DNA of 64,000 nucleotides, taken from assembly GCF_013004105.1 (NCBI RefSeq), contig NZ_CP053085.1, positions 1 to 64,000 on the forward strand. The letters run 5' to 3'. Shown in pieces: positions 1-51,809 of this stretch (position 1 is its first letter; every line of letters begins with the position of its first letter). The translations under genes were made by a program, and so were the position numbers. Origin of the DNA: Gemmatimonas groenlandica (GTDB lineage: Bacteria; Gemmatimonadota; Gemmatimonadetes; Gemmatimonadales; Gemmatimonadaceae). The notes under the pieces are model-generated. The model was not told where the DNA came from, searched no databases, and was given only the letters and a program-made list of their open reading frames with translations.

Positions 1-1390
1 GATCGACGTTCGTGGTCGTTGCGCCGCTCCACGTGAGCCTGGCCGTATTCTGCGTCTTCGTGACCTGCTTGGCGATCGAGAGCTTGATCACCGGGGTCGG
101 CGTCGGCGTGACGACCGTGGTCGTGTCGGGCGGCGGCGTCACGGTGGTGTCGGGCGGAGGCGTCACGGATGCCGCGAACATGTTGGTGAGCAACACGTTC
201 GGCGAACCGGTGCCGGGGCCGACCACGATATTCGCGGTGCCGCCGGCCAGCATGGCGCTGCGGACCTGCGCCGGCGAGTAGGACGGGTAGCTGCCGAGGA
301 TCAAGGCGGCTACTCCGGCCACGTGCGGCGACGCCATCGACGTGCCACTCAGGCTTGCATAGGAGCTGGAGGAGCCGATATACGACGAGTAGATGCCACT
401 GCCCGGGGCGAAGATGTCGAGGCAGCTGCCGTAGTTGGAGTAGCTGGCGCGGTAGTCGTTCGACTCCGTCGCACCGACGGTCAGCGCGTTCGGCGTGCTG
501 GCCGGCGACGAGGTGCAGGCGTCGGCGCCGCTGTTACCGGCGGCAACCGCGAAGGTGACGCCGGCGCTGATCGCCTTCGTGACGGCATCGTTGACCGAGG
601 CGCTGTACCCGCCGCCGAGGCTCATGTTGGCGGCCATCGGGATCGACTTGTTGGCCGTCTTCTGGCCCGTCACCCAATCGATGCCGGCGATGACGCCGCT
701 CCAGGATCCGCTGCCGCTACAATCGAGGACGCGAACCGGCACCACGTTGACGCCGCGTGCCACACCGGTCGAGCTGCCACCGATCGTGCCGGCGACGTGC
801 GTACCGTGTCCGTTGCAGTCTTCCGGGTTGTTGTCGCCGAAGGCCGAGTACCCGGCCAGCGCACGGCCCGCGAACTGTTCATGCGAGGTCAGGATGCCGG
901 TGTCGACGATGTAGACGCGGACGCCCGCGCCGTTGCCGGCGAAGCTGTACGAGCCATCGAGCGGCAGCGGGCGCTGGTCGAGGCGATCGAGTCCCCACGA
1001 CGCCGCCGCGACGGTTTCGGTGATGAACACCTTGCCGTCCTGTTCGACGCGGAAAATGCCGTCGGCCGATTCCAGTCGCTTGGCAGCGGCCGGCGTGAGC
1101 GTGGCCGAGAAGCCCTTGAGCGCGAACTTGAACTCACGCTTGAGCTTTCCCTTCTGCTGCGCGAGCAGCGCCCGGGCGCGACCGGTGGGGTCGGCTTCCG
1201 AGCTATCAAACGTCACGATGTAATCGATCTGCGTACTGTCGTCGTCGGCAGCGCTGGAGGAAGCGGCCGCAGCCAGGCGGGCGGCTGCGGGCACGGCGGG
1301 ACTCGTCACATCAGTGGCATCGGAGCAGGCCGCCAGAGAAACGGCGGCGAGCAGCACAGAGCCAGTGGAGACGCGCGAAAAGAGTGACAT
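1..1390 (-). CDS. S8 subtilisin-like serine protease lipoprotein (3' end outside window)
   Basis: Secreted endopeptidase of the proteinase K/subtilisin type; 463 codons are visible and the gene runs off the left edge. Residues 1-22 form a lipoprotein signal ending in LAAC, so Cys22 is probably lipidated. Residues about 55-125 match the I9 inhibitor/chaperone propeptide. The catalytic triad is visible: Asp163 in VYIVDTGI, His197 in NGHGTHVAG and Ser351 in SGTSMASPHVAG. The oxyanion Asn lies in AAGNSG near residue 286. After the catalytic domain there is a Pro/Thr linker built from two PPPDTT units, then the start of a beta-sandwich domain that is cut by the window edge. The ATG at 1390 has no clear Shine-Dalgarno sequence but gives a proper signal peptide. 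It is divergent from the aminotransferase gene. The family call is firm; the substrate is unknown. Confidence 0.93.
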   Translation of the reverse strand, partial: MSLFSRVSTGSVLLAAVSLAACSDATDVTSPAVPAAARLAAAASSSAADDDSTQIDYIVTFDSSEADPTGRARALLAQQKGKLKREFKFALKGFSATLTPAAAKRLESADGIFRVEQDGKVFITETVAAASWGLDRLDQRPLPLDGSYSFAGNGAGVRVYIVDTGILTSHEQFAGRALAGYSAFGDNNPEDCNGHGTHVAGTIGGSSTGVARGVNVVPVRVLDCSGSGSWSGVIAGIDWVTGQKTANKSIPMAANMSLGGGYSASVNDAVTKAISAGVTFAVAAGNSGADACTSSPASTPNALTVGATESNDYRASYSNYGSCLDIFAPGSGIYSSYIGSSSSYASLSGTSMASPHVAGVAALILGSYPSYSPAQVRSAMLAGGTANIVVGPGTGSPNVLLTNMFAASVTPPPDTTVTPPPDTTTVVTPTPTPVIKLSIAKQVTKTQNTARLTWSGATTTNVD

Positions 1391-1644
1391 CGATGGGTAC
1401 GGTTCAAAATGTTATGACCGCCCTCGGCGCCTCGTGCGTCGTGCAGTCGAGGTAGTGACGGATGACTCCGCTCGATCGGCACAACGAAAAGCGCAGTTTG
1501 TGTGACACAGGTCCCAACTTGTGACAGTCTTCATCCTCTCGACATGAAACGCGGGCTCAGCCATCCCGATCCGGCCCCCAAAGGCGGCATTTGTGACGCC
1601 GTCTTCACCCTCGCGATCCGCAGATTCGAGCCGCATGTTCCCTC

Positions 1645-3009
1645 ATGGACCGCCGACTCTTCGTTTCCGCCGTGGCCGGGGCGACCGCCCTGCCCAGCCT
1701 CGCCGCCGCGCTCGCGCCGCGATTTTCGCCGCACGCGATCCGGCGCCTGATCGATGCCGCCGATGTCGCCAAGGATCGCGGCGTGGCCTTGTTCGATCCG
1801 GCTGCCCCCGCCTGGCGCGGTGACGCGGCACAGGCGGACGCGTTTGCCGCCGACGAAGATTTCTGGGAACCGATTCAACGTGCGTTCGATCTCGACCGCA
1901 CGTGGATCAACTTGAACAACGGCGGCTGCTCACCGGCCCCGTCGCACGTGATGGCACAGCTCGAACGCGACCTGCGCTTTTCGAATGAGCTGCCCGTGAT
2001 CCAGATGTGGCAGACGCTGGAGCCGCGCATCGAGATCGTACGTCGCGAACTCGCGCTGGAGTTCGGCTGCGGCACCAACGAGATGGCCATTACGCGGAAT
2101 GCATCGGAAGCGCTCGAGACACTGATCTTCGGCATCGATCTCAAGCGCGGCGATGAAGTGGTGGTGAGCAACCAGAATTACGGGCGCATGATCAACGCGT
2201 GGAAGCAGCGCGCGCGCCGCGATGGCATCGTGCTGAAGGAAGTGTCGTTCCCGGTGCCGTGCACGGAGCCGCAGCAGATCGTGGACGCGTTCGCCGCCGC
2301 GATCACGCCACGCACGCGGGTGATGGAGATCACGCACATCACGAACCTGACCGGGCAGATTCTGCCCGTGAAAGAGTTGATCGCGATGGCGCGCGCGAAG
2401 GGTGTGGTGACGTTCGTGGACGGCGCGCACGCCTTCGCGCAGTTCCCGTTCACGCGCGATGAACTCGACGTGGACTACTACGGCACCAGCCTGCACAAAT
2501 GGCTGCTGGCGCCGATCGGCACGGGCTTCCTGTATGTGCGCCAAGACAAGATCGAGTCGATGTGGCCGCTGATGGCGGGCAACCCGGGGCAGGAAGCCGA
2601 CATTCGCAAGTACGAAGAGATCGGCACGCATCCGGCGGCGAATCACAACGCGATTTCGGTGTCGCTGGCATTTCACCGCGCGATCGGCGCGGCGCGTAAG
2701 CAGGCGCGTCTCAAGTTCCTGCGCGACCGTTGGGCCAAGCGACTGCTGGCCGACGGAAAGGGGCGCGTGAAGGTGCTCACGCCGCTCGACTCCAAGTGGG
2801 GCGGCGGTATCGGCTTCTTCAACGTGGACGGCCTCGACCCGGTGAAGCTCGGCAGCTGGTTGGTGTCGCAGCACCGTGTGGTGCAGACGCCGATCGTGCA
2901 CGCCGAATTCAGCGGGATCCGAGTCACCCCCAACGTGTATACCACGTTGGATGAGATCGACCGGTTCTCCGAGCTTGTGCTCAAAGCGATGCGAAACGGC
3001 ATCGCCTGA
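1645..3009 (+). CDS. Exported class V aminotransferase (isopenicillin-N-epimerase-like)
   Basis: PLP-dependent fold-type I enzyme of 454 residues. The likely PLP lysine is Lys285 in GTSLHKW, preceded by the cofactor Asp in FVDGAHAF. The family includes cysteine desulfurases and isopenicillin N epimerase-like proteins; the NNGGCSP segment near residue 92 is typical of the epimerase-like branch. The N-terminus (MDRRLFVSAVAGATALPSLA) is a short Tat-like signal with one Arg pair, suggesting export of the folded holoenzyme. About 22 bases separate it from the DUF4412 gene downstream on the same strand. The reaction is not deducible from sequence: desulfurase, lyase and epimerase activities all remain possible. 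Confidence 0.88.
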   Translation: MDRRLFVSAVAGATALPSLAAALAPRFSPHAIRRLIDAADVAKDRGVALFDPAAPAWRGDAAQADAFAADEDFWEPIQRAFDLDRTWINLNNGGCSPAPSHVMAQLERDLRFSNELPVIQMWQTLEPRIEIVRRELALEFGCGTNEMAITRNASEALETLIFGIDLKRGDEVVVSNQNYGRMINAWKQRARRDGIVLKEVSFPVPCTEPQQIVDAFAAAITPRTRVMEITHITNLTGQILPVKELIAMARAKGVVTFVDGAHAFAQFPFTRDELDVDYYGTSLHKWLLAPIGTGFLYVRQDKIESMWPLMAGNPGQEADIRKYEEIGTHPAANHNAISVSLAFHRAIGAARKQARLKFLRDRWAKRLLADGKGRVKVLTPLDSKWGGGIGFFNVDGLDPVKLGSWLVSQHRVVQTPIVHAEFSGIRVTPNVYTTLDEIDRFSELVLKAMRNGIA

Positions 3010-43266: not shown

Positions 43267-43468
43267 GCGCACACCGCGTGATCACCGATCGACGAGCGCG
43301 CGTGCGCTGCGACGTGAGGGAACTTCATGCGCCCCACAGAAGCCGCGGCGGCCGTGACCAGTCGATCATCCGATCGAGGTACCGAAAGACCGGGCGGATG
43401 GAGGATTCGCGGCGCCGGGGGGAGTGGCATTCTCCGTCGACTGCTTCCTCCCCGAACTGGAGCCTGAT

Positions 43469-44176
43469 GTGTCGAACGCGAATGGTCGTCGTGCACTCAC
43501 CGAGAAAGGCCTGCTTACCCCGCAGAACTCGGTGGTTGCCATCATCGATATTCAGCCTCAGATGGTTTTCGGAGTCGCCAGTGCGGACCGCCAGTCCATC
43601 ATCGATGCGAACCTGGTTTTTGCAAAGGCCGCACGCGCCTTTGGTGTGCCCACGGTGCTTTCGGGCGTGGAGAGTTCAAGCTTCAGTGGTGCCCTCCTGC
43701 CGCAGCTGCAGGCCGTGTTCCCGGACCATACGCCGATCGAGCGTAGTTCCATGAATGCGTGGGACGATGCGGACTTTCAACGCGCGATACTCGCAACCGG
43801 CCGGCGCAATCTTGTACTGGCCGGACTCTGGACGGAAACGTGTGTCGCCCTGCCAACCGTCCAGGCGCTGCACGATGGCTTCAACGTGTTCGTGGTCGAG
43901 GATGCATGCGGCGACGTGAGTGAACTGGCGCACCGCAATGCGATGCAGCGCGTCGTTCAGGCCGGCGCAAAGCCGGTCACGGCGCTCTCGGTCATGCTTG
44001 AATGGCAGCGTGACTGGGCTATCCGAGAGACATACGATGCAGTCGTCGACATCGTGAAGACCCACTGTGGTGCCTACGGCGTGGGTCTTGAATATGCGAC
44101 CACGATGGTCCATGGCGGCGCGACGACGCCGTGGCCTCCGTATACGCCTCGCCTTGTTGCTGGCGTACCGACATGA
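43469..44176 (+). CDS. Isochorismatase-family hydrolase, YcaC-like
   Basis: A 235-residue cysteine hydrolase. The best start is GTG 43469 with GGAG 6 bases upstream; GTG 43424 would add 15 residues. Catalytic Asp27 lies in VAIIDIQPQM and the nucleophile Cys125 in GLWTETCVALPT. ERSSMNAWDDADF follows the YcaC pattern, in which the Lys of nicotinamidases is not at the usual place. YcaC-type enzymes form octamers and their substrate is unknown. Overlap of 4 bases (ATGA) with the amidohydrolase gene implies one operon and probably one pathway. Confidence 0.9.
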   Translation: MSNANGRRALTEKGLLTPQNSVVAIIDIQPQMVFGVASADRQSIIDANLVFAKAARAFGVPTVLSGVESSSFSGALLPQLQAVFPDHTPIERSSMNAWDDADFQRAILATGRRNLVLAGLWTETCVALPTVQALHDGFNVFVVEDACGDVSELAHRNAMQRVVQAGAKPVTALSVMLEWQRDWAIRETYDAVVDIVKTHCGAYGVGLEYATTMVHGGATTPWPPYTPRLVAGVPT

Positions 44177-46002
44177 CCGTCGCCAGCCTGCTGCTGACCA
44201 ACGCTCGCATCCACACGATGGATTCGCAGCGGCCGAACGGCGCTGCACTCGCCGCGCACAACGGTCGTGTGCTGGCAGTCGGCTCAGCGCGAGAAATCGA
44301 ACCGTATCGCGGTGCAGGGACGCTCGAGATCGATGCTGCGGGCCGCACCGTCATTCCGGGGCTCATCGATTCGCACATCCACAGTATCCGCGGAGGCCTT
44401 AACTACAATCTCGAGCTGCGGTGGGACGGCGTTCCAGCGCTCGCAGACGCCCTGCGGATGCTGCGGGCACAGGCTGCGCGCACGCCGCCCGGCCACTGGG
44501 TGCGCGTCATTGGCGGCTGGAACGAGTTCCAGTTCGCCGAGCGGCGGTTGCCGACTCTCGACGAGATCAATGCGGCCGCCCCCGAAACACCGGTGTTCAT
44601 CCTCTACCTCTACGGCTTCGCGCTGTTGAATCGCGCTGCGCTGGCCGCCGTAGGCTACACGCGCGACACGCCGGATCCACCAGGCGGGGAGATCCAGCGG
44701 AATAAGGCAGGGCATCCAACCGGGCTGCTCCTGGCGAAGCCCAATGCGAGCATCCTCTACTCGACGCTCGCCAAGGGACCGCGCCTGTCGTTCGACGACC
44801 AGGTCAATTCGTCGCGCCACTTCAATCGGGAGCTGAACCGGCTGGGGGTCACCAGTGTGATCGACGCGGGTGGCGGCTTTCAGAACTACCCGGAGGATTA
44901 CCGGGTCGTCGAGGCACTGCACGCGAGCGGTGAGCTGACGGTGCGCATCGCGTACAACCTTTTCACGCAGAAGCCGGGTGGAGAGTTGTCCGACTTCCAG
45001 CGCTGGGCCGGTCTGGTACGGCCAGGCGATGGCGACGCCTTCTACCGCATGAATGGCGCGGGCGAAATGTTGGTCTTCTCTGCGGCCGACTTCGAAAACT
45101 TCCTCGAACCACGGCCGGACCTGTCTCCGACCCTCGAGTCGGACCTCGAGGCGGTGGTACGTCACCTCGTGGCGCAGCGGTGGCCGTTTCGACTGCATGC
45201 TACCTATGATGAATCGATCGCGCGATTCCTCGACGTGTTTGAGCGGGTGGAGCGCGATGTGCCCTTCAACGGACTTCGTTGGTGGTTCGACCACGCCGAG
45301 ACGATTTCACCGCGCAGCCTCGAGCGTACCGCTGCGCTTGGCGGTGGCGTAGCCATCCAGCACCGCATGGCCTTTCAGGGCGAACACTTCGTGGCACGTC
45401 ACGGCGCAGCAGCGGCCGAGGCCGCACCGCCAGTGCGGCGGATGCTCGAGATGGGACTGCGCGTGGGGGCGGGGACGGACGCGACGCGTGTTGCCAGTTA
45501 CAACCCGTGGGTCGGCCTCTACTGGCTCGTGAGCGGACGTACGGTGGGAGGCACCGCCATTCATCCTCGGCGCAACCGATTGAGCCGTCTCGAAGCGCTG
45601 CGCCTCTTTACGCACGGCAGTGCGTGGTTCTCAGGTGAGGACGCGGACAAGGGAACACTCGCGCCCGGTATGCTCGCGGATTTCGCGATGCTGTCGAGCG
45701 ACTTCTTCAGCGTGCCCGAGGACGAAATCAAGCGGATCGACTCGCTGCTGACGGTAGTGAATGGACGGGTTGTGCATGCTGCCGGCCCCTATGCGCAACT
45801 CGCCCCACCGATCCCACCGGTGCGGCCCGACTGGTCACCTGTCGCGCACCGAGAGGATACCCCCGTTGGGGCCCCTTCCGGCCATGCGTGCCATGGCCCG
45901 CCCAACGCGGGCATGCGTCGACACTCGAATCATGCACACGGGGGCCATGGGCTCGGCGCCGTCGGCTTCGCCGGCAGCGGCTGCGACTGCTTCGTGTTCT
46001 AG
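44173..46002 (+). CDS. YtcJ-type amidohydrolase with His/Cys-rich C-terminal tail
   Basis: A 609-residue metal-dependent hydrolase. The start LLTNARIHTMDSQRPNGAAL and the metal motif GLIDSHIHSI are typical of the amidohydrolase 3 group; the later ligands appear in FRLHATYDES, WWFDHAETIS and the Asp in GAGTDATRVAS. The domain ends with the usual PGMLADFAMLSSDFF near residue 515. An added tail from about residue 560 is rich in His, Gly and Cys (GHACHGPPNAGMRRHSNHAH, then GGHGLGAVG and GCDCF) and looks like a metal-binding segment. It probably hydrolyses an amide or cyclic imide. ATGA-coupled to the YcaC-like gene. Confidence 0.88.
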   Translation: MTVASLLLTNARIHTMDSQRPNGAALAAHNGRVLAVGSAREIEPYRGAGTLEIDAAGRTVIPGLIDSHIHSIRGGLNYNLELRWDGVPALADALRMLRAQAARTPPGHWVRVIGGWNEFQFAERRLPTLDEINAAAPETPVFILYLYGFALLNRAALAAVGYTRDTPDPPGGEIQRNKAGHPTGLLLAKPNASILYSTLAKGPRLSFDDQVNSSRHFNRELNRLGVTSVIDAGGGFQNYPEDYRVVEALHASGELTVRIAYNLFTQKPGGELSDFQRWAGLVRPGDGDAFYRMNGAGEMLVFSAADFENFLEPRPDLSPTLESDLEAVVRHLVAQRWPFRLHATYDESIARFLDVFERVERDVPFNGLRWWFDHAETISPRSLERTAALGGGVAIQHRMAFQGEHFVARHGAAAAEAAPPVRRMLEMGLRVGAGTDATRVASYNPWVGLYWLVSGRTVGGTAIHPRRNRLSRLEALRLFTHGSAWFSGEDADKGTLAPGMLADFAMLSSDFFSVPEDEIKRIDSLLTVVNGRVVHAAGPYAQLAPPIPPVRPDWSPVAHREDTPVGAPSGHACHGPPNAGMRRHSNHAHGGHGLGAVGFAGSGCDCFVF

Positions 46003-46050: not shown

Positions 46051-46686
46051 ATGAGTGGTACTCGAAACGGTACGGCGATAGGGTTACACGATGAGCGCAT
46101 GACACCCACTACCGATCACCCGCGCGGTGCGTCGGTGTCACCGCCCGCCAAGCTCGTGATCGAGAGACGCGTGCGACCCGGTAGGGAGCGCGAGTTCGAG
46201 GTCTGGGTGCGTGCCTTGATCCACAGCGCGTCGGCGGCCAACGCGCACGAGGGCTCGAGTGTGCTGGACGCTGGCGGCGGCGAATACTTCGTGCTCGTGC
46301 GCTTCGCGAGTCCGGAAGCACTCGACCGCTGGCGCGAGTCCGACGAGGTCGTCGCCTTGAGCGCGGACGGAGATACGCTTTCAACCGCGGTAGACTGGCC
46401 AATCGTTCGCAGCGGCCTCGAAACCTGGTTTACGGCGCCTGGGCACCGATCGCGTGTCGCGCCACGGTGGAAGATGGCGTTGGTGACGTGGTGCGCGTTG
46501 ATGCCGCAGGTGCTCCTGCTCAGCGTTGTCATGCCTGAGGGTATTCCACTCGTGCTCGGCGTCGGACTGACCACTGCGATCTCGGTCTCTATGCTCACCT
46601 GGGTCGTGATGCCGCGCCTGACCGCGCTCCTCGCCGGATGGTTGTTCAGCCCCGATCAGGAAGGCGCGCGCGCGGTTCGGGCGTGA
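46051..46686 (+). CDS. Antibiotic-biosynthesis-monooxygenase-fold membrane protein
   Basis: A 211-residue protein. GAGAGG at 46040-46045 fixes ATG 46051. Residues about 32-125 fit a dimeric alpha/beta-barrel (ABM) domain: KLVIERRVRPGREREFEVWV, then SSVLDAGGGEYFVLVRFAS. Two transmembrane segments follow (about 142-160 and 165-195), with a short cytoplasmic tail. Membrane-tethered ABM proteins of this type often sit next to transporters. No catalytic residue set is established for the family. It follows the amidohydrolase by 48 bases and precedes the MFS gene by 16 bases. Confidence 0.82.
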   Translation: MSGTRNGTAIGLHDERMTPTTDHPRGASVSPPAKLVIERRVRPGREREFEVWVRALIHSASAANAHEGSSVLDAGGGEYFVLVRFASPEALDRWRESDEVVALSADGDTLSTAVDWPIVRSGLETWFTAPGHRSRVAPRWKMALVTWCALMPQVLLLSVVMPEGIPLVLGVGLTTAISVSMLTWVVMPRLTALLAGWLFSPDQEGARAVRA

Positions 46687-46702: not shown

Positions 46703-48280
46703 GTGACATCGGTTGCACTTCGCCCGTTCGGGAGCCCCGCCTTCCGAGTGCTGTGGGTCGCTACCGTGGTGAGCACGACGGGCACGTGGATTCACGACGT
46801 AGGTGCCACGTGGCTGATGACGGGGCTCACGCCGTCACCGATCATGGTGTCGCTCGTTCAGACAGCCACAACGATGCCGGTGCTTGCGCTCGCGTTGCCC
46901 GCGGGTGTCCTGGCGGACGTGCTCGACCGACGACGCGTGCTGATCGCTGCACAGTTGTGGATGACGATCGCGGCGCTTGTGCTGGGTTTGCTCACGCTCT
47001 CCGGTAGGACGACACCGGCGACACTGTTGGTCATGACGTTCGTGCTCGGCATCGGTGCGGCGCTCACCGCGCCGGCATGGCAGGCGATCGTGCCCGAACT
47101 CGTGGCGACCGTCGATGTTCCGGCAGCGATCACCCTTAATAGCGCCGGCGTGAACGTGGCGCGCGCCATCGGTCCCGCCGTCGGTGGCCTGCTCATCGCG
47201 GCGAACGGTCCGGCCCCTGCGTTCCTGATCAACGCGGTCACATTTATGGGAGTAACCGCTGCCTTGGTCTGGTGGAGACGCTCAGTGCCACCGAGCGTGC
47301 TGCCGCCCGAACCCCTCGTGGCGGCGCTCGGCGTCGGGCTGCGCTACGTGCGAAACACGCCCCCGCTCATCACGGTACTCGTGCGGACGCTGGCGTTTAT
47401 TGCCTTCGGGAGTGCGCTGTGGGCCCTGTTGCCGCTGGTTGCCCGCGTACGATTGGGCGCGAGCGTCGCTGGCTACGGACTGCTGCTCGGAGCCATCGGT
47501 ATTGGTGCGCTGAGTGCGACGGTGCTGCTGCCGGTTCTCCGGCGCCGGTATTCGATTGAACGCCTCGTCGTCGTCGCGACACTTGCCTACGCAGTCGTGC
47601 TGCTGGTCCTCGCGACGAGCAACAGTTACTTCGTGGTGTTCGTTACGTTGCTGCTCGCGGGCTCGGCATGGCTCACGCTGCTCTCCACGCTCCAGACGAG
47701 CGCGCAGGCGACCGTCCCGTCCTGGGTGAGGGGGCGCGCACTCGCGGTGTACCTGATGGTGTTCTTCGGCGGTCAGGCAGGAGGCAGCATCGTGTGGGGC
47801 GCCGTTGCTGAACTCCTGGGAAGCTCGGCGTCACTCGTCATCGCCGCTTGCGGCCTTGTGCTCGGCCTCACGACCGCCCGCAGGTACCCGTTGCATACGG
47901 CCGGCCATTCCGACCAGTCGCCGTCGCACCACTGGCCGATGCCCGAATCGTCACCCGGCGGTGCGCCCGAACGCGGCACGCGCGTTGTCGTAGTGATGAC
48001 CGAATACCTGATCGATCCCGGGTCGAGCGTCGCATTCTCCGCCGCGATGCGTGAGATGCGTGCCGCGCGAATGCGAAGCGGGGCGGTGCGTTGGCAACTC
48101 GCCAATGACCTCTCGCGTCCGGAGCGGTTCGTCGAGCAGTTCACGGTGCCGACCTGGGATGAGCATCTGCGGCAGCACGCGCGTGTCAGCATTGCCGATG
48201 AGGACGTGCAGCGGAAGGTGCGTGCGTTTCATCGCGGAGTCGATCCTCCAGCCGTTACGCATCTCATCGCCGTGTATTGA
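46703..48280 (+). CDS. MFS_3-family transporter with C-terminal ABM-like domain
   Basis: A 525-residue membrane exporter. It starts at GTG 46703. Twelve hydrophobic segments fill residues about 10-400, with the motif VLADVLDRRRVLIAAQLWMT typical of MFS_3 (EntS-like). A Pro-rich linker follows, then a soluble domain (about 425-525; VVVMTEYLIDPGSSVAFSAA, WQLANDLSRPERFVEQF) of the ABM/dimeric barrel type that is standard in this subfamily. It probably exports a small aromatic or siderophore-like compound. It ends 82 bases before the convergent DoxX-porin gene. Confidence 0.9.
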   Translation: MTSVALRPFGSPAFRVLWVATVVSTTGTWIHDVGATWLMTGLTPSPIMVSLVQTATTMPVLALALPAGVLADVLDRRRVLIAAQLWMTIAALVLGLLTLSGRTTPATLLVMTFVLGIGAALTAPAWQAIVPELVATVDVPAAITLNSAGVNVARAIGPAVGGLLIAANGPAPAFLINAVTFMGVTAALVWWRRSVPPSVLPPEPLVAALGVGLRYVRNTPPLITVLVRTLAFIAFGSALWALLPLVARVRLGASVAGYGLLLGAIGIGALSATVLLPVLRRRYSIERLVVVATLAYAVVLLVLATSNSYFVVFVTLLLAGSAWLTLLSTLQTSAQATVPSWVRGRALAVYLMVFFGGQAGGSIVWGAVAELLGSSASLVIAACGLVLGLTTARRYPLHTAGHSDQSPSHHWPMPESSPGGAPERGTRVVVVMTEYLIDPGSSVAFSAAMREMRAARMRSGAVRWQLANDLSRPERFVEQFTVPTWDEHLRQHARVSIADEDVQRKVRAFHRGVDPPAVTHLIAVY

Positions 48281-48362: not shown

Positions 48363-50228
48363 CTAGAACCGATACGCAGCATATCCGCCGAGGTACGTGA
48401 TGTTGCGACGCGCGCTCGCCGGCGCTGTCTCCCGCACGTACGGGCCCACCACGAATGCGCCCGCTGTCGCCAGCAGGGTGACACGCCGGTTGACCTCCCA
48501 TTCCAGCTCCACGCCGGGCTGATGGCCGACGAAGCGTGCCGACGTTCGTGCCCCCGTGCGAAGTGGCACGCCCACCGGATTGTAAACGCCGTCGGCGGCG
48601 CTATCCCGCCAGTATACGAGCCACTCGACGGAGAGTGACGCCCCCCGCCAGGGCTCCACTTCCAGTCGCGGGTGCAGGTCGCGGACATTCGCGGGGCCGA
48701 CGGGTGAGAGGAGACCAAAGTAGTCGCCGCGCGGATACAGTGGATGAAACGTTTGCAGGTCCGCGTTGTCGCGATCGCGGTCACCGCTTGCGACGTCCGC
48801 CCGCAGTGAGATTCGTGGTGACAACGGCGTGTGCGGCCAGCGCACACCAGTCTCTGTGGCCAGGGTCCACGCACGTATGCGGCCCGCCGCGGGGCCATCG
48901 CCGAATGCTCCGAACTGCAGCATCGGCTCCCAGTTGTAGTCGATAACCGTTCCGTTGAGCGCGACGGCTCCCCACAACCGCGTGCCCAGGGTGTGGCGAA
49001 GTTCACGCCGTGGCGGGCCGCTCGCATTCTGATCGAACCGTGCCCCGCGTCGCCAATGTCCGATGTAGTAGCCGTCGACGCGAAGACCTGCTTTCTTCGT
49101 CGCGCCGGGCACCCTGAGACCTGCGGCGTACGCCCCCCACAGCGTGCGTGTGCGGTCGATCCCGTCGTCGAAGACGCCGCGCCGCGTCATCGCCGGCGAG
49201 GCGACGAAGATGTCCACGCGCGCCTGGTCTTGCCGCGGTGAGCGCGGTCCCGCCCAGCCGCTGACGGACAAGCGCACCGCGTCGAAGCTCTGTCTCACGT
49301 TCTCGCCTTCGCGGAAGTTGATCAGGCGTGCGGACCCATAAAACAACTCTTGTCGACCGAGGCGCAGGGCAACACGGCGCCGTCGCGCTGCGCCTCCGAC
49401 TTCGACGTAGGCCTGATGCACGTCCAACCGGTCCACGTCTGCCGGCCGCGCACTGCCCTCACGTCCGCTCGCCAGCCCGCTCTTCAACTGCAGAAATGCT
49501 GCTGGCGCGAGCCAGATCGTTGGACGACTGAGGCGGGCGTGCAGCATGTAGCGCTGCAGAAGGTATGCATCACGAGGAATCGCGTCGACGCCGAAGTCTT
49601 CCCATCCATAGCGTTCCATGAACAAGCGCACCTCGCCGCCCAACTCGATCGCTCCCAATGATGGGGATTGCGCAGCAGCGGCCGGAGCACGCAGGCTCGC
49701 GGTGGCGACAGCGATCCCGAGCAGTATCACCGAGCTGATGCCGAATCGTCGGCACGATCGGAGAGCGGCGCGCGCGTGCCGGGCGAACCATTCCCATGCA
49801 GGTTGCTCGAGTCGCGTATCCATCGCGACCGCACCGGCGCCGGTGAGCGTGAGGGCTCCCGCGATCACGATGTACGTGAGCGCTGGCTCCAGCGCCAGAA
49901 ATCCGAGCGGCCATTTGTCGATGACGGCCACGACCATGGTGCTCGCAAGTGCGACGGCGGCCGGTCGCGTCGCGAGCCCGAGCAGCAGGCATAGGCCAGC
50001 GCCAAGCTGAGCCCCAACGGCGAGCGCCGCGAAGGCAGCAGGCGCAGGGAAGCCCAATGCAGCGACCGTTTCAACGAACGCGCGGTTGCCGACAATCAGC
50101 TCCTGCGCCTTGTGTCGTCCGTGGAAGCCAAGGAACGTGGCCGCCACATACCAGCGGAGCAGGGTCGGCCCCCAACGGGCGATGGCTGCACCGCGCGCGG
50201 ACGGCCTGTCGTCGGCAGAGCGGGTCAT
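48363..50228 (-). CDS. DoxX domain fused to an alginate-export-type outer-membrane porin
   Basis: A 621-residue fusion. Residues about 20-145 are a DoxX-type inner-membrane domain with four hydrophobic segments (LLRWYVAATFLGFHGRHKAQ, LGAGLCLLLGLATRPAAVAL). Residues about 165-187 look like an internal signal peptide (ISSVILLGIAVATASLRAP, then AAAAQ). From 190 to the end the sequence is a beta-barrel of the alginate export family (GGEVRLFMERYGWEDFG, RLGRQELFYGSARLINF; last residue Phe). A GAGGA with a 6-base spacer supports ATG 50228. I see no frameshift at the junction. An internal GTG at the junction could make a separate porin. It is divergent from the alpha/beta hydrolase and convergent with the MFS gene. 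Confidence 0.85.
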   Translation of the reverse strand: MTRSADDRPSARGAAIARWGPTLLRWYVAATFLGFHGRHKAQELIVGNRAFVETVAALGFPAPAAFAALAVGAQLGAGLCLLLGLATRPAAVALASTMVVAVIDKWPLGFLALEPALTYIVIAGALTLTGAGAVAMDTRLEQPAWEWFARHARAALRSCRRFGISSVILLGIAVATASLRAPAAAAQSPSLGAIELGGEVRLFMERYGWEDFGVDAIPRDAYLLQRYMLHARLSRPTIWLAPAAFLQLKSGLASGREGSARPADVDRLDVHQAYVEVGGAARRRRVALRLGRQELFYGSARLINFREGENVRQSFDAVRLSVSGWAGPRSPRQDQARVDIFVASPAMTRRGVFDDGIDRTRTLWGAYAAGLRVPGATKKAGLRVDGYYIGHWRRGARFDQNASGPPRRELRHTLGTRLWGAVALNGTVIDYNWEPMLQFGAFGDGPAAGRIRAWTLATETGVRWPHTPLSPRISLRADVASGDRDRDNADLQTFHPLYPRGDYFGLLSPVGPANVRDLHPRLEVEPWRGASLSVEWLVYWRDSAADGVYNPVGVPLRTGARTSARFVGHQPGVELEWEVNRRVTLLATAGAFVVGPYVRETAPASARRNITYLGGYAAYRF

Positions 50229-50681: not shown

Positions 50682-51809
50682 ATGCACAGCGTGGACGACA
50701 TTCAGCGTGTGACCGATCCCACCGAGACCACCAATGAGTTCAATCCGATGCAGAGCCGGCGAGACGCGCTGAAGGTCGCCGCTGCAATCACGGCACTGCC
50801 GATCGTGTCGGCAATCGTGCCCGCACAGGCGTCGGCTTCGACGCCCGTGTCACTCACCCCTCTGCCTCCCGCCCCCATGCGACTCGAACCCGTCACCCAG
50901 AAATTCATCGCCGGACTCGCCGGTGCACCATCGCTCTCGACGCTCACGCCGGAGCGCGCGCACGCCGTGCTCACCGACCTGCAGTCAAAGCCGGTGCCGC
51001 TCCGTCCCGCTGATATCGAGGACACCACGTGGCCGGTAGGCCCGACGGGGACGACGCGCATCCGGATCGTCCGTCCACGTGGCGTGAAGGACACACTGCC
51101 ACTGCTGATGTATTTCCACGGCGGTGGCTGGGTGCTGGGCGACAAGGTCACGCACGACCGGCTTGTGCGCGAACTCGCCGAGGGCGTTCGCGCCACGGTG
51201 GTATTCGTGGACTACATCAACTCGCCCGAGGCCAAGTACCCGACTCAAAACGAGCAGGCCTACGCGGCGATGCTGTACGCCGTCGAGCACGCGAAGGAGC
51301 TCAACGTGGACCCCTCTCGGCTTGCGATCGCTGGCGACAGCGTCGGTGGCAATATGTCTGCAGTCGTGACGCTGATGGCCAAGGAGCGAAGAGGGCCAAA
51401 GATCGCCTATCAAGTGCTGTTCTACCCGCTGGTCGACTACCTGGGTGCAACCGAGTCGTACAAGAAGTACGCGGATGGCCCGTGGCTCACCCGACAGACG
51501 ATGAAGTGGATGTTCGACTTACAGGGGCTCGACGGCACGGAGGATTATCATGCGTTCCCGCTACGCGCAACCGTCGAGCAGCTGAGCGGGTTGCCGGACG
51601 CACTCCTCATCACGGACGACGACATCCTGCAGGACGAGGGCGAAACGTACGCGCACAAGCTCGCACAGGGCGGGGCACGCGTCACCACCGTGCGCTACAA
51701 CGGCACGGTGCACGATTTCGCCATGCTCAACCCGCTGTCAGACACGCCGGCCGCGCGGGGCGCCATCCAGCAGGCCATCACGGCTCTCAAGACCGCACTC
51801 CGCTCTTGA
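50682..51809 (+). CDS. Exported alpha/beta hydrolase, hormone-sensitive-lipase group
   Basis: A 375-residue esterase-like protein. A Tat-type signal lies at QSRRDALKVAAAITALPIVS with cleavage near AQASA. The HSL motifs follow: oxyanion HGGGW near residue 146, nucleophile GDSVGGN near 220, Asp in LLITDDDILQDEG near 308, His in GTVHDFAML near 344. A strong GGAGGAG fixes ATG 50682. Such enzymes hydrolyse short-chain esters. It stands divergent to the DoxX-porin gene with which it may share regulation. Whether it belongs to the YcaC-amidohydrolase pathway is only suggested by proximity. Confidence 0.9.
   Translation: MHSVDDIQRVTDPTETTNEFNPMQSRRDALKVAAAITALPIVSAIVPAQASASTPVSLTPLPPAPMRLEPVTQKFIAGLAGAPSLSTLTPERAHAVLTDLQSKPVPLRPADIEDTTWPVGPTGTTRIRIVRPRGVKDTLPLLMYFHGGGWVLGDKVTHDRLVRELAEGVRATVVFVDYINSPEAKYPTQNEQAYAAMLYAVEHAKELNVDPSRLAIAGDSVGGNMSAVVTLMAKERRGPKIAYQVLFYPLVDYLGATESYKKYADGPWLTRQTMKWMFDLQGLDGTEDYHAFPLRATVEQLSGLPDALLITDDDILQDEGETYAHKLAQGGARVTTVRYNGTVHDFAMLNPLSDTPAARGAIQQAITALKTALRS

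Follow-up and report, generated by a model that had tools for sequence, protein, structure and literature searches.

In the cytochrome b/c1 precursor FbcH of Bradyrhizobium japonicum, a polytopic inner-membrane protein and an exported protein are linked by an internal signal peptide, at which signal peptidase cuts the precursor in two. Its cleavage has been demonstrated, and both mature products sit in one inner-membrane complex. Here we analyse a stretch of 64,000 nucleotides from the genome of Gemmatimonas groenlandica (the window), in which a single gene joins a DoxX domain to a porin of the AlgE type. An earlier note on this DNA had read the gene as an inner-membrane DoxX domain and an outer-membrane porin in one frame, and this is borne out by Pfam, AlphaFold and Foldseek and by a frame that runs through with no stop; the DoxX–AlgE-type porin observation is confirmed.

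Results

The gene and the parts into which we divide it are the following.

48363 to 50228, minus strand: fused DoxX / Alginate_exp gene, 621 amino acids and a TAG stop
49815 to 50177, minus strand: DoxX domain, residues 18-138, with four transmembrane helices (11-46, 63-83, 87-108, 110-129), from Pfam, alignment and AlphaFold
49671 to 49814, minus strand: linker, residues 139-186 (48 residues), from hydrophobicity, charge and AlphaFold helices 144-162 and 166-179
49668 to 49673, minus strand: candidate signal peptidase I site between A186 and Q187, an A-x-A pattern read from the sequence
48366 to 49670, minus strand: putative mature barrel of the AlgE type with 18 strands, residues 187-621, the last of them aromatic (F621), from Pfam, AlphaFold and Foldseek

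The frame is open throughout and starts at an ATG with a plausible Shine-Dalgarno sequence, CTGAGGAAC (-5.6 kcal/mol). Pfam places DoxX at residues 21-103 with E 2.6e-13 and 50.9 bits, above the gathering score of 23.6, and Alginate_exp (PF13372) at residues 195-608 with E 1.4e-62 and 212 bits (cut-off 25.2). The second match spans profile positions 4-391 of 395 and thus almost the full profile. In the AlphaFold models, for which alignments without plasmid sequences were used, the DoxX part consists of four long helices at confident pLDDT (about 90-96). This is the complete four-helix bundle of the DoxX family (PF07681) with its HG-x-x-K region, but the window copy runs on, with no stop, into a charged linker and a signal-like helix. 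It keeps all 8 residues that are invariant in the DoxX alignment (L24, R25, H36, G37, K40, G84, G130 and G132), and with the HvfX model (NF050144) it scores 40.7 bits, below the cut-off of 80. The porin part forms 18 long strands (residues 194-620), and its best Foldseek matches in the PDB are AlgE (E 2e-17), at 13-14% identity in the structural alignment; it keeps 31 family-invariant residues of the barrel alignment. In whole-domain match, strand number and best structural match it therefore resembles AlgE and the Alginate_exp porins, from which it differs in that it alone carries an N-terminal DoxX domain. These results support the view that both halves are complete and that they belong in different membranes.

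The two halves meet at ...ALRSCRRFG-ISSVILLGIAVATASL-RAPAAAA/QSPS, where the slash marks the candidate cut. This stretch can be laid out as an n-region R157-R161 (RSCRR), a 16-residue h-region I164-L179 and a c-region R180-A186, and residues 163-179 are the 17-residue hydrophobicity peak of the whole protein (2.05). The linker before the hydrophobic segment holds 6 Lys/Arg against 3 Asp/Glu, and residues 139-162 are a positively charged stretch that is probably cytoplasmic. Since an even number of predicted transmembrane helices, four, precedes the signal-like helix, and since the linker is net positive, the arrangement agrees with the positive-inside rule and supports insertion of the segment in the manner of a signal peptide. 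The earlier note had called the junction a perfect signal peptide cleaved after AAAAQ and had proposed a prediction on the internal segment. A rule-based parse does find a signal-like segment, internal in the protein and just before the barrel, although the parse by itself is unspecific, with some parse also found in 37 of 200 shuffles of the same protein. The signal-peptide reading comes instead from this position and from the segment's resemblance to the signal peptides at the N-termini of unfused relatives, such as that of the Novosphingobium porin, MARRVLLALLLVVLSLLRPAPAAAQ/T. Judged by its form, the segment looks like a signal peptide; the cut is moved by one residue: because Gln at -1 is an unusual residue for signal peptidase I, cleavage would probably fall between A186 and Q187, leaving just seven residues (QSPSLGA) before the first strand at 194.

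Two codons near the junction could in principle start a separate porin.

49821 to 49823, minus strand: ATG136, the sole in-frame ATG of the linker region, with a weak Shine-Dalgarno sequence (-3.4 kcal/mol)
49728 to 49730, minus strand: GTG167, overlapped by a TGA in frame +1 (GTGA), with no Shine-Dalgarno sequence (-1.7 kcal/mol), within the h-region

The background median of ribosome-binding energy in the gene is -2.8 kcal/mol, and from codon 136 to codon 167 no further ATG, GTG or TTG stands in frame. Across most of the junction codon usage favours the fused frame; at residues 141-165 it is flat.

The fused gene lies among genes that recur beside related porins elsewhere.

43424 to 44176, plus strand: isochorismatase-type hydrolase (Pfam), upstream cluster member
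44173 to 46002, plus strand: amidohydrolase (Amidohydro_3), which in other phyla is a conserved partner of DoxX, the porin or both
46051 to 46686, plus strand: ABM-domain protein (Pfam ABM) in the interval between amidohydrolase and MFS genes
46703 to 48280, plus strand: MFS_3 transporter (Pfam), a conserved member of the cluster that converges on the fused gene
50682 to 51809, plus strand: Abhydrolase_3 esterase (Pfam), divergent from the fused gene

The amidohydrolase and MFS genes thus stand just past the end of the fused gene, on the opposite strand. The amidohydrolase is 61% identical over 558 amino acids to a Bosea plasmid protein and 73% identical to that of a genome of the same genus (G004), and it is scarce in the class (4 of 394 genomes); the MFS_3 transporter is 44% identical to a Bosea plasmid protein. 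G004 keeps isochorismatase, amidohydrolase and MFS genes together, the first two again adjoining, with DoxX and porin absent at that locus. For the window porin itself, identity is 45% with porins of Verrucomicrobiota, 43% with Oryzomonas and 42% with Edaphobacter, but at most 38% with other porins of Gemmatimonadota. In the porin tree it falls, together with a paralogue, within a 43-row clade (100/100) that spans many phyla and includes the cluster porins, while two other porins of the same genome fall outside. The cluster was likely acquired horizontally.

Genes of this porin clade often adjoin genes for an amidohydrolase, an MFS_3 transporter and DoxX, as in Novosphingobium, Bosea, Sphingobium and unannotated relatives. 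The neighbourhood of amidohydrolase and AlgE-type porin occurs in six phyla (Pseudomonadota, Verrucomicrobiota, Planctomycetota, Acidobacteriota, Thermodesulfobacteriota and Gemmatimonadota), joined by DoxX and MFS_3 at least in Pseudomonadota and by DoxX also in Verrucomicrobiota; to our knowledge it has not been described. No alginate-synthesis genes were found among the scanned neighbours, and since the genes of the clade lie with amidohydrolase, MFS and DoxX genes, alginate is an unlikely substrate. The annotation "alginate export family protein" is probably misleading in these clusters.

Several further features of these loci were observed. The order amidohydrolase - DoxX - AlgE-type porin recurs at L213 and L214 (both in G598), L208 (G858), L203 (G802), and L073 and its relatives. 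The amidohydrolase homologues at L073, L074 and L079 end in a Cys/His-rich tail, CGCxSxCGVHGHDHA...GALGCGCWAV, which is largely altered in the window copy, and the Bosea amidohydrolase begins with a twin-arginine-like sequence. The porin paralogue lies outside the window, about 25 kb away (G000:C1:75621-77060; L170 15621-17060, minus strand); it is 44% identical to the porin half, groups with it in the tree (100/99), lacks DoxX and bears an N-terminal signal peptide of its own. Directly upstream of it (L170 17065-18777, minus strand) is a gene for a 570-residue protein with two alpha/beta hydrolase domains in one frame. The Phyllobacterium plasmid NZ_CP104967.1 matches 92% of this double hydrolase in one piece, at a distance of about 13 kb from a porin of the same clade on that plasmid; the double hydrolase fusion thus seems to be a recurring architecture. 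In another member of Gemmatimonadota (G036), a DoxX gene and an Alginate_exp gene, the latter from a different porin clade, are convergent neighbours (L007 2719-4179, minus strand, and 1123-2697, plus strand).

For comparison with the fused gene we used eight distinct unfused pairs (L073, L077, L081, L083, L203, L208, L213 and L214). In every one DoxX stands directly upstream of the porin, and with start codons of our choosing the two either overlap or are separated by no more than about 14 nt, for example through ATGA in L214, TGATG in L208, 29 nt in L213 and a 14-nt gap in Novosphingobium. The porin is in frame +1 or +2 relative to DoxX in all eight, never in frame 0; the window pair alone is in frame. 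The pairs beside an amidohydrolase (plasmid of Novosphingobium sp. EMRT-2, L073; Verrucomicrobiota G598, L213 and L214) show the same two domains, order and neighbours as the window, with porins about 36-45% identical to the window porin, but there they are two genes in different frames, overlapping or near-touching. The DoxX half is harder to place: where it can be aligned with cluster copies, identity is 31-36%, the tree leaves it on a long branch without a settled position, and a comparison with plasmid DoxX proteins gives no match even at E 0.01, so that direct orthology to the cluster DoxX is not confirmed.

A search for DoxX and Alginate_exp in one protein, which the earlier note had proposed, gave no second case in about 1,420 genomes from five phyla (395 Gemmatimonadota, 194 Verrucomicrobiota, 398 Pseudomonadota, 217 Acidobacteriota and 216 Planctomycetota, the phylum names following the records through which the genomes were reached), a sample that is not exhaustive and in which a fusion with a very divergent DoxX could escape detection. 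The fusion is also absent from 78 plasmid records with matches and from 80 loci around the amidohydrolase, and a single-protein scan of the genome contigs returned no match. Candidates that we rejected are long frames beside some porins (621 amino acids in G030, 732 in G345 and 642 in G009), which are GC-rich stop-to-stop read-throughs without DoxX, and DoxX matches with an in-frame TGA (G116, G277, G026 and G146), which are DoxX genes with their own stop and have no porin near them in the stretch fetched. We found no paper that describes either a fusion of DoxX with alginate_export or this gene cluster. Within our sample the fusion appears to be derived and unique, and as no second genome carries it, its function has no support from conservation.

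Discussion

Our analysis makes it probable that the fusion is genuine and derived, having arisen from a neighbouring DoxX–porin pair; its product would be a precursor cut in two by signal peptidase I. The ancestral pair was probably translationally coupled. Where two genes overlap or nearly touch out of frame, one indel suffices for an in-frame fusion; the DoxX stop and the porin start codon would have been lost while the porin signal peptide was retained in frame, and once this peptide had become internal the start codon would be free to decay. That the window keeps the amidohydrolase and MFS genes of the cluster, and that its porin belongs to the clade of the cluster porins, supports the fusion of a pair of the cluster type. 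Against it count the strand of the fused gene, opposite to that of the amidohydrolase and MFS genes, and the unsettled tree position and low identity of the DoxX half. The earlier note had held that separate genes in all close relatives would count against its reading. Every relative examined does keep the genes apart, which indicates that the fusion is derived and rare, but it is not thereby an error.

How could one polypeptide supply both membranes? From topology rules and the layout of the junction we infer the orientation of the helices, the cleavage, the sorting of the products and their stoichiometry as follows. One ribosome would produce the 621-residue precursor, and SecYEG would insert the four DoxX helices with both termini inside. 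The positive linker would hold the C-terminal end of the bundle in the cytoplasm, so that the fifth hydrophobic segment enters N-in/C-out like a signal peptide, and signal peptidase I would then release the barrel. DoxX would remain behind in the inner membrane, where the former signal peptide would form a fifth helix or be left as a trimmed stub, while the barrel would cross the periplasm and reach BAM. Synthesis of the two halves would be 1:1, and the equal expression of which the earlier note spoke is plausible.

Might the two genes be separate in the living strain and joined here by one miscalled base or indel? The pairs of the relatives, which a single indel would fuse, invite this suspicion, as do the GTGA overlap at codon 167, the flat codon preference nearby, and a fusion that is unique and known from a single assembly of the strain. 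Yet the genome is a single contig of 5,179,092 bp at 99.3% completeness, and the junction itself does not come apart easily. Frame +2 is free of stops across it, so DoxX could end only through a shift to frame +1; a stop can be had by a single-base change, but this would leave the porin with GTG167 as its start, which lacks both a Shine-Dalgarno sequence and a charged n-region, although the n-region RSCRR lies upstream of it in the fused frame. No single-base change therefore restores two conventional genes, and we regard an assembly or sequencing artefact as unlikely. The same codon bears on whether the porin is made separately by internal initiation, from ATG136 or GTG167, with the long product a minor one. 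The earlier note offered an internal GTG as its alternative to cutting after synthesis; a start at codon 167, within the hydrophobic core, would drop the charged n-region, and the cut precursor is the most economical reading. In favour of internal initiation, ATG136 stands in frame and its use would yield a 51-residue signal peptide of the extended type, and in relatives the porin start overlaps the DoxX end; Shine-Dalgarno sequences are also weak at several starts presumed for other genes in the window. However, the binding energies at the two codons are near or below the background median, and ATG136, at the end of the fourth transmembrane helix, is what ordinary DoxX sequence would lead one to expect. 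Internal initiation therefore strikes us as quite improbable.

If instead the precursor stayed uncut, the signal-like helix would be a fifth transmembrane helix and the barrel would be degraded or remain tethered to the inner membrane. Cleavage is here deduced from sequence, and uncut signal anchors exist. Against this, the c-region RAPAAAA/Q is a standard signal peptidase I site, as in the unfused relatives, the few residues before the first strand are too short to span the periplasm, and the conserved barrel residues argue for a working pore; we consider the uncut protein very unlikely. A variant that we hold to be still more remote is that an uncut fraction of the precursor acts as a physical tether or conduit from inner to outer membrane that couples DoxX to the barrel.

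Returning to the cut precursor, the window would offer a natural experiment in which an inner-membrane protein and an outer-membrane barrel share one polypeptide, for which topology parity and a retained signal peptide would suffice. As a Rosetta-stone sign, the fusion hints that DoxX and the porin act in one pathway. The closest known parallel is FbcH: in the window protein too a polytopic part with an even number of transmembrane helices is followed in frame by a signal-peptide-like segment. The difference is that the second product would here go to the outer membrane, and that cleavage, demonstrated for FbcH, is in our case predicted. The fusion is rare yet mechanistically ordinary, probably a processed precursor like FbcH, extended to an outer-membrane product.
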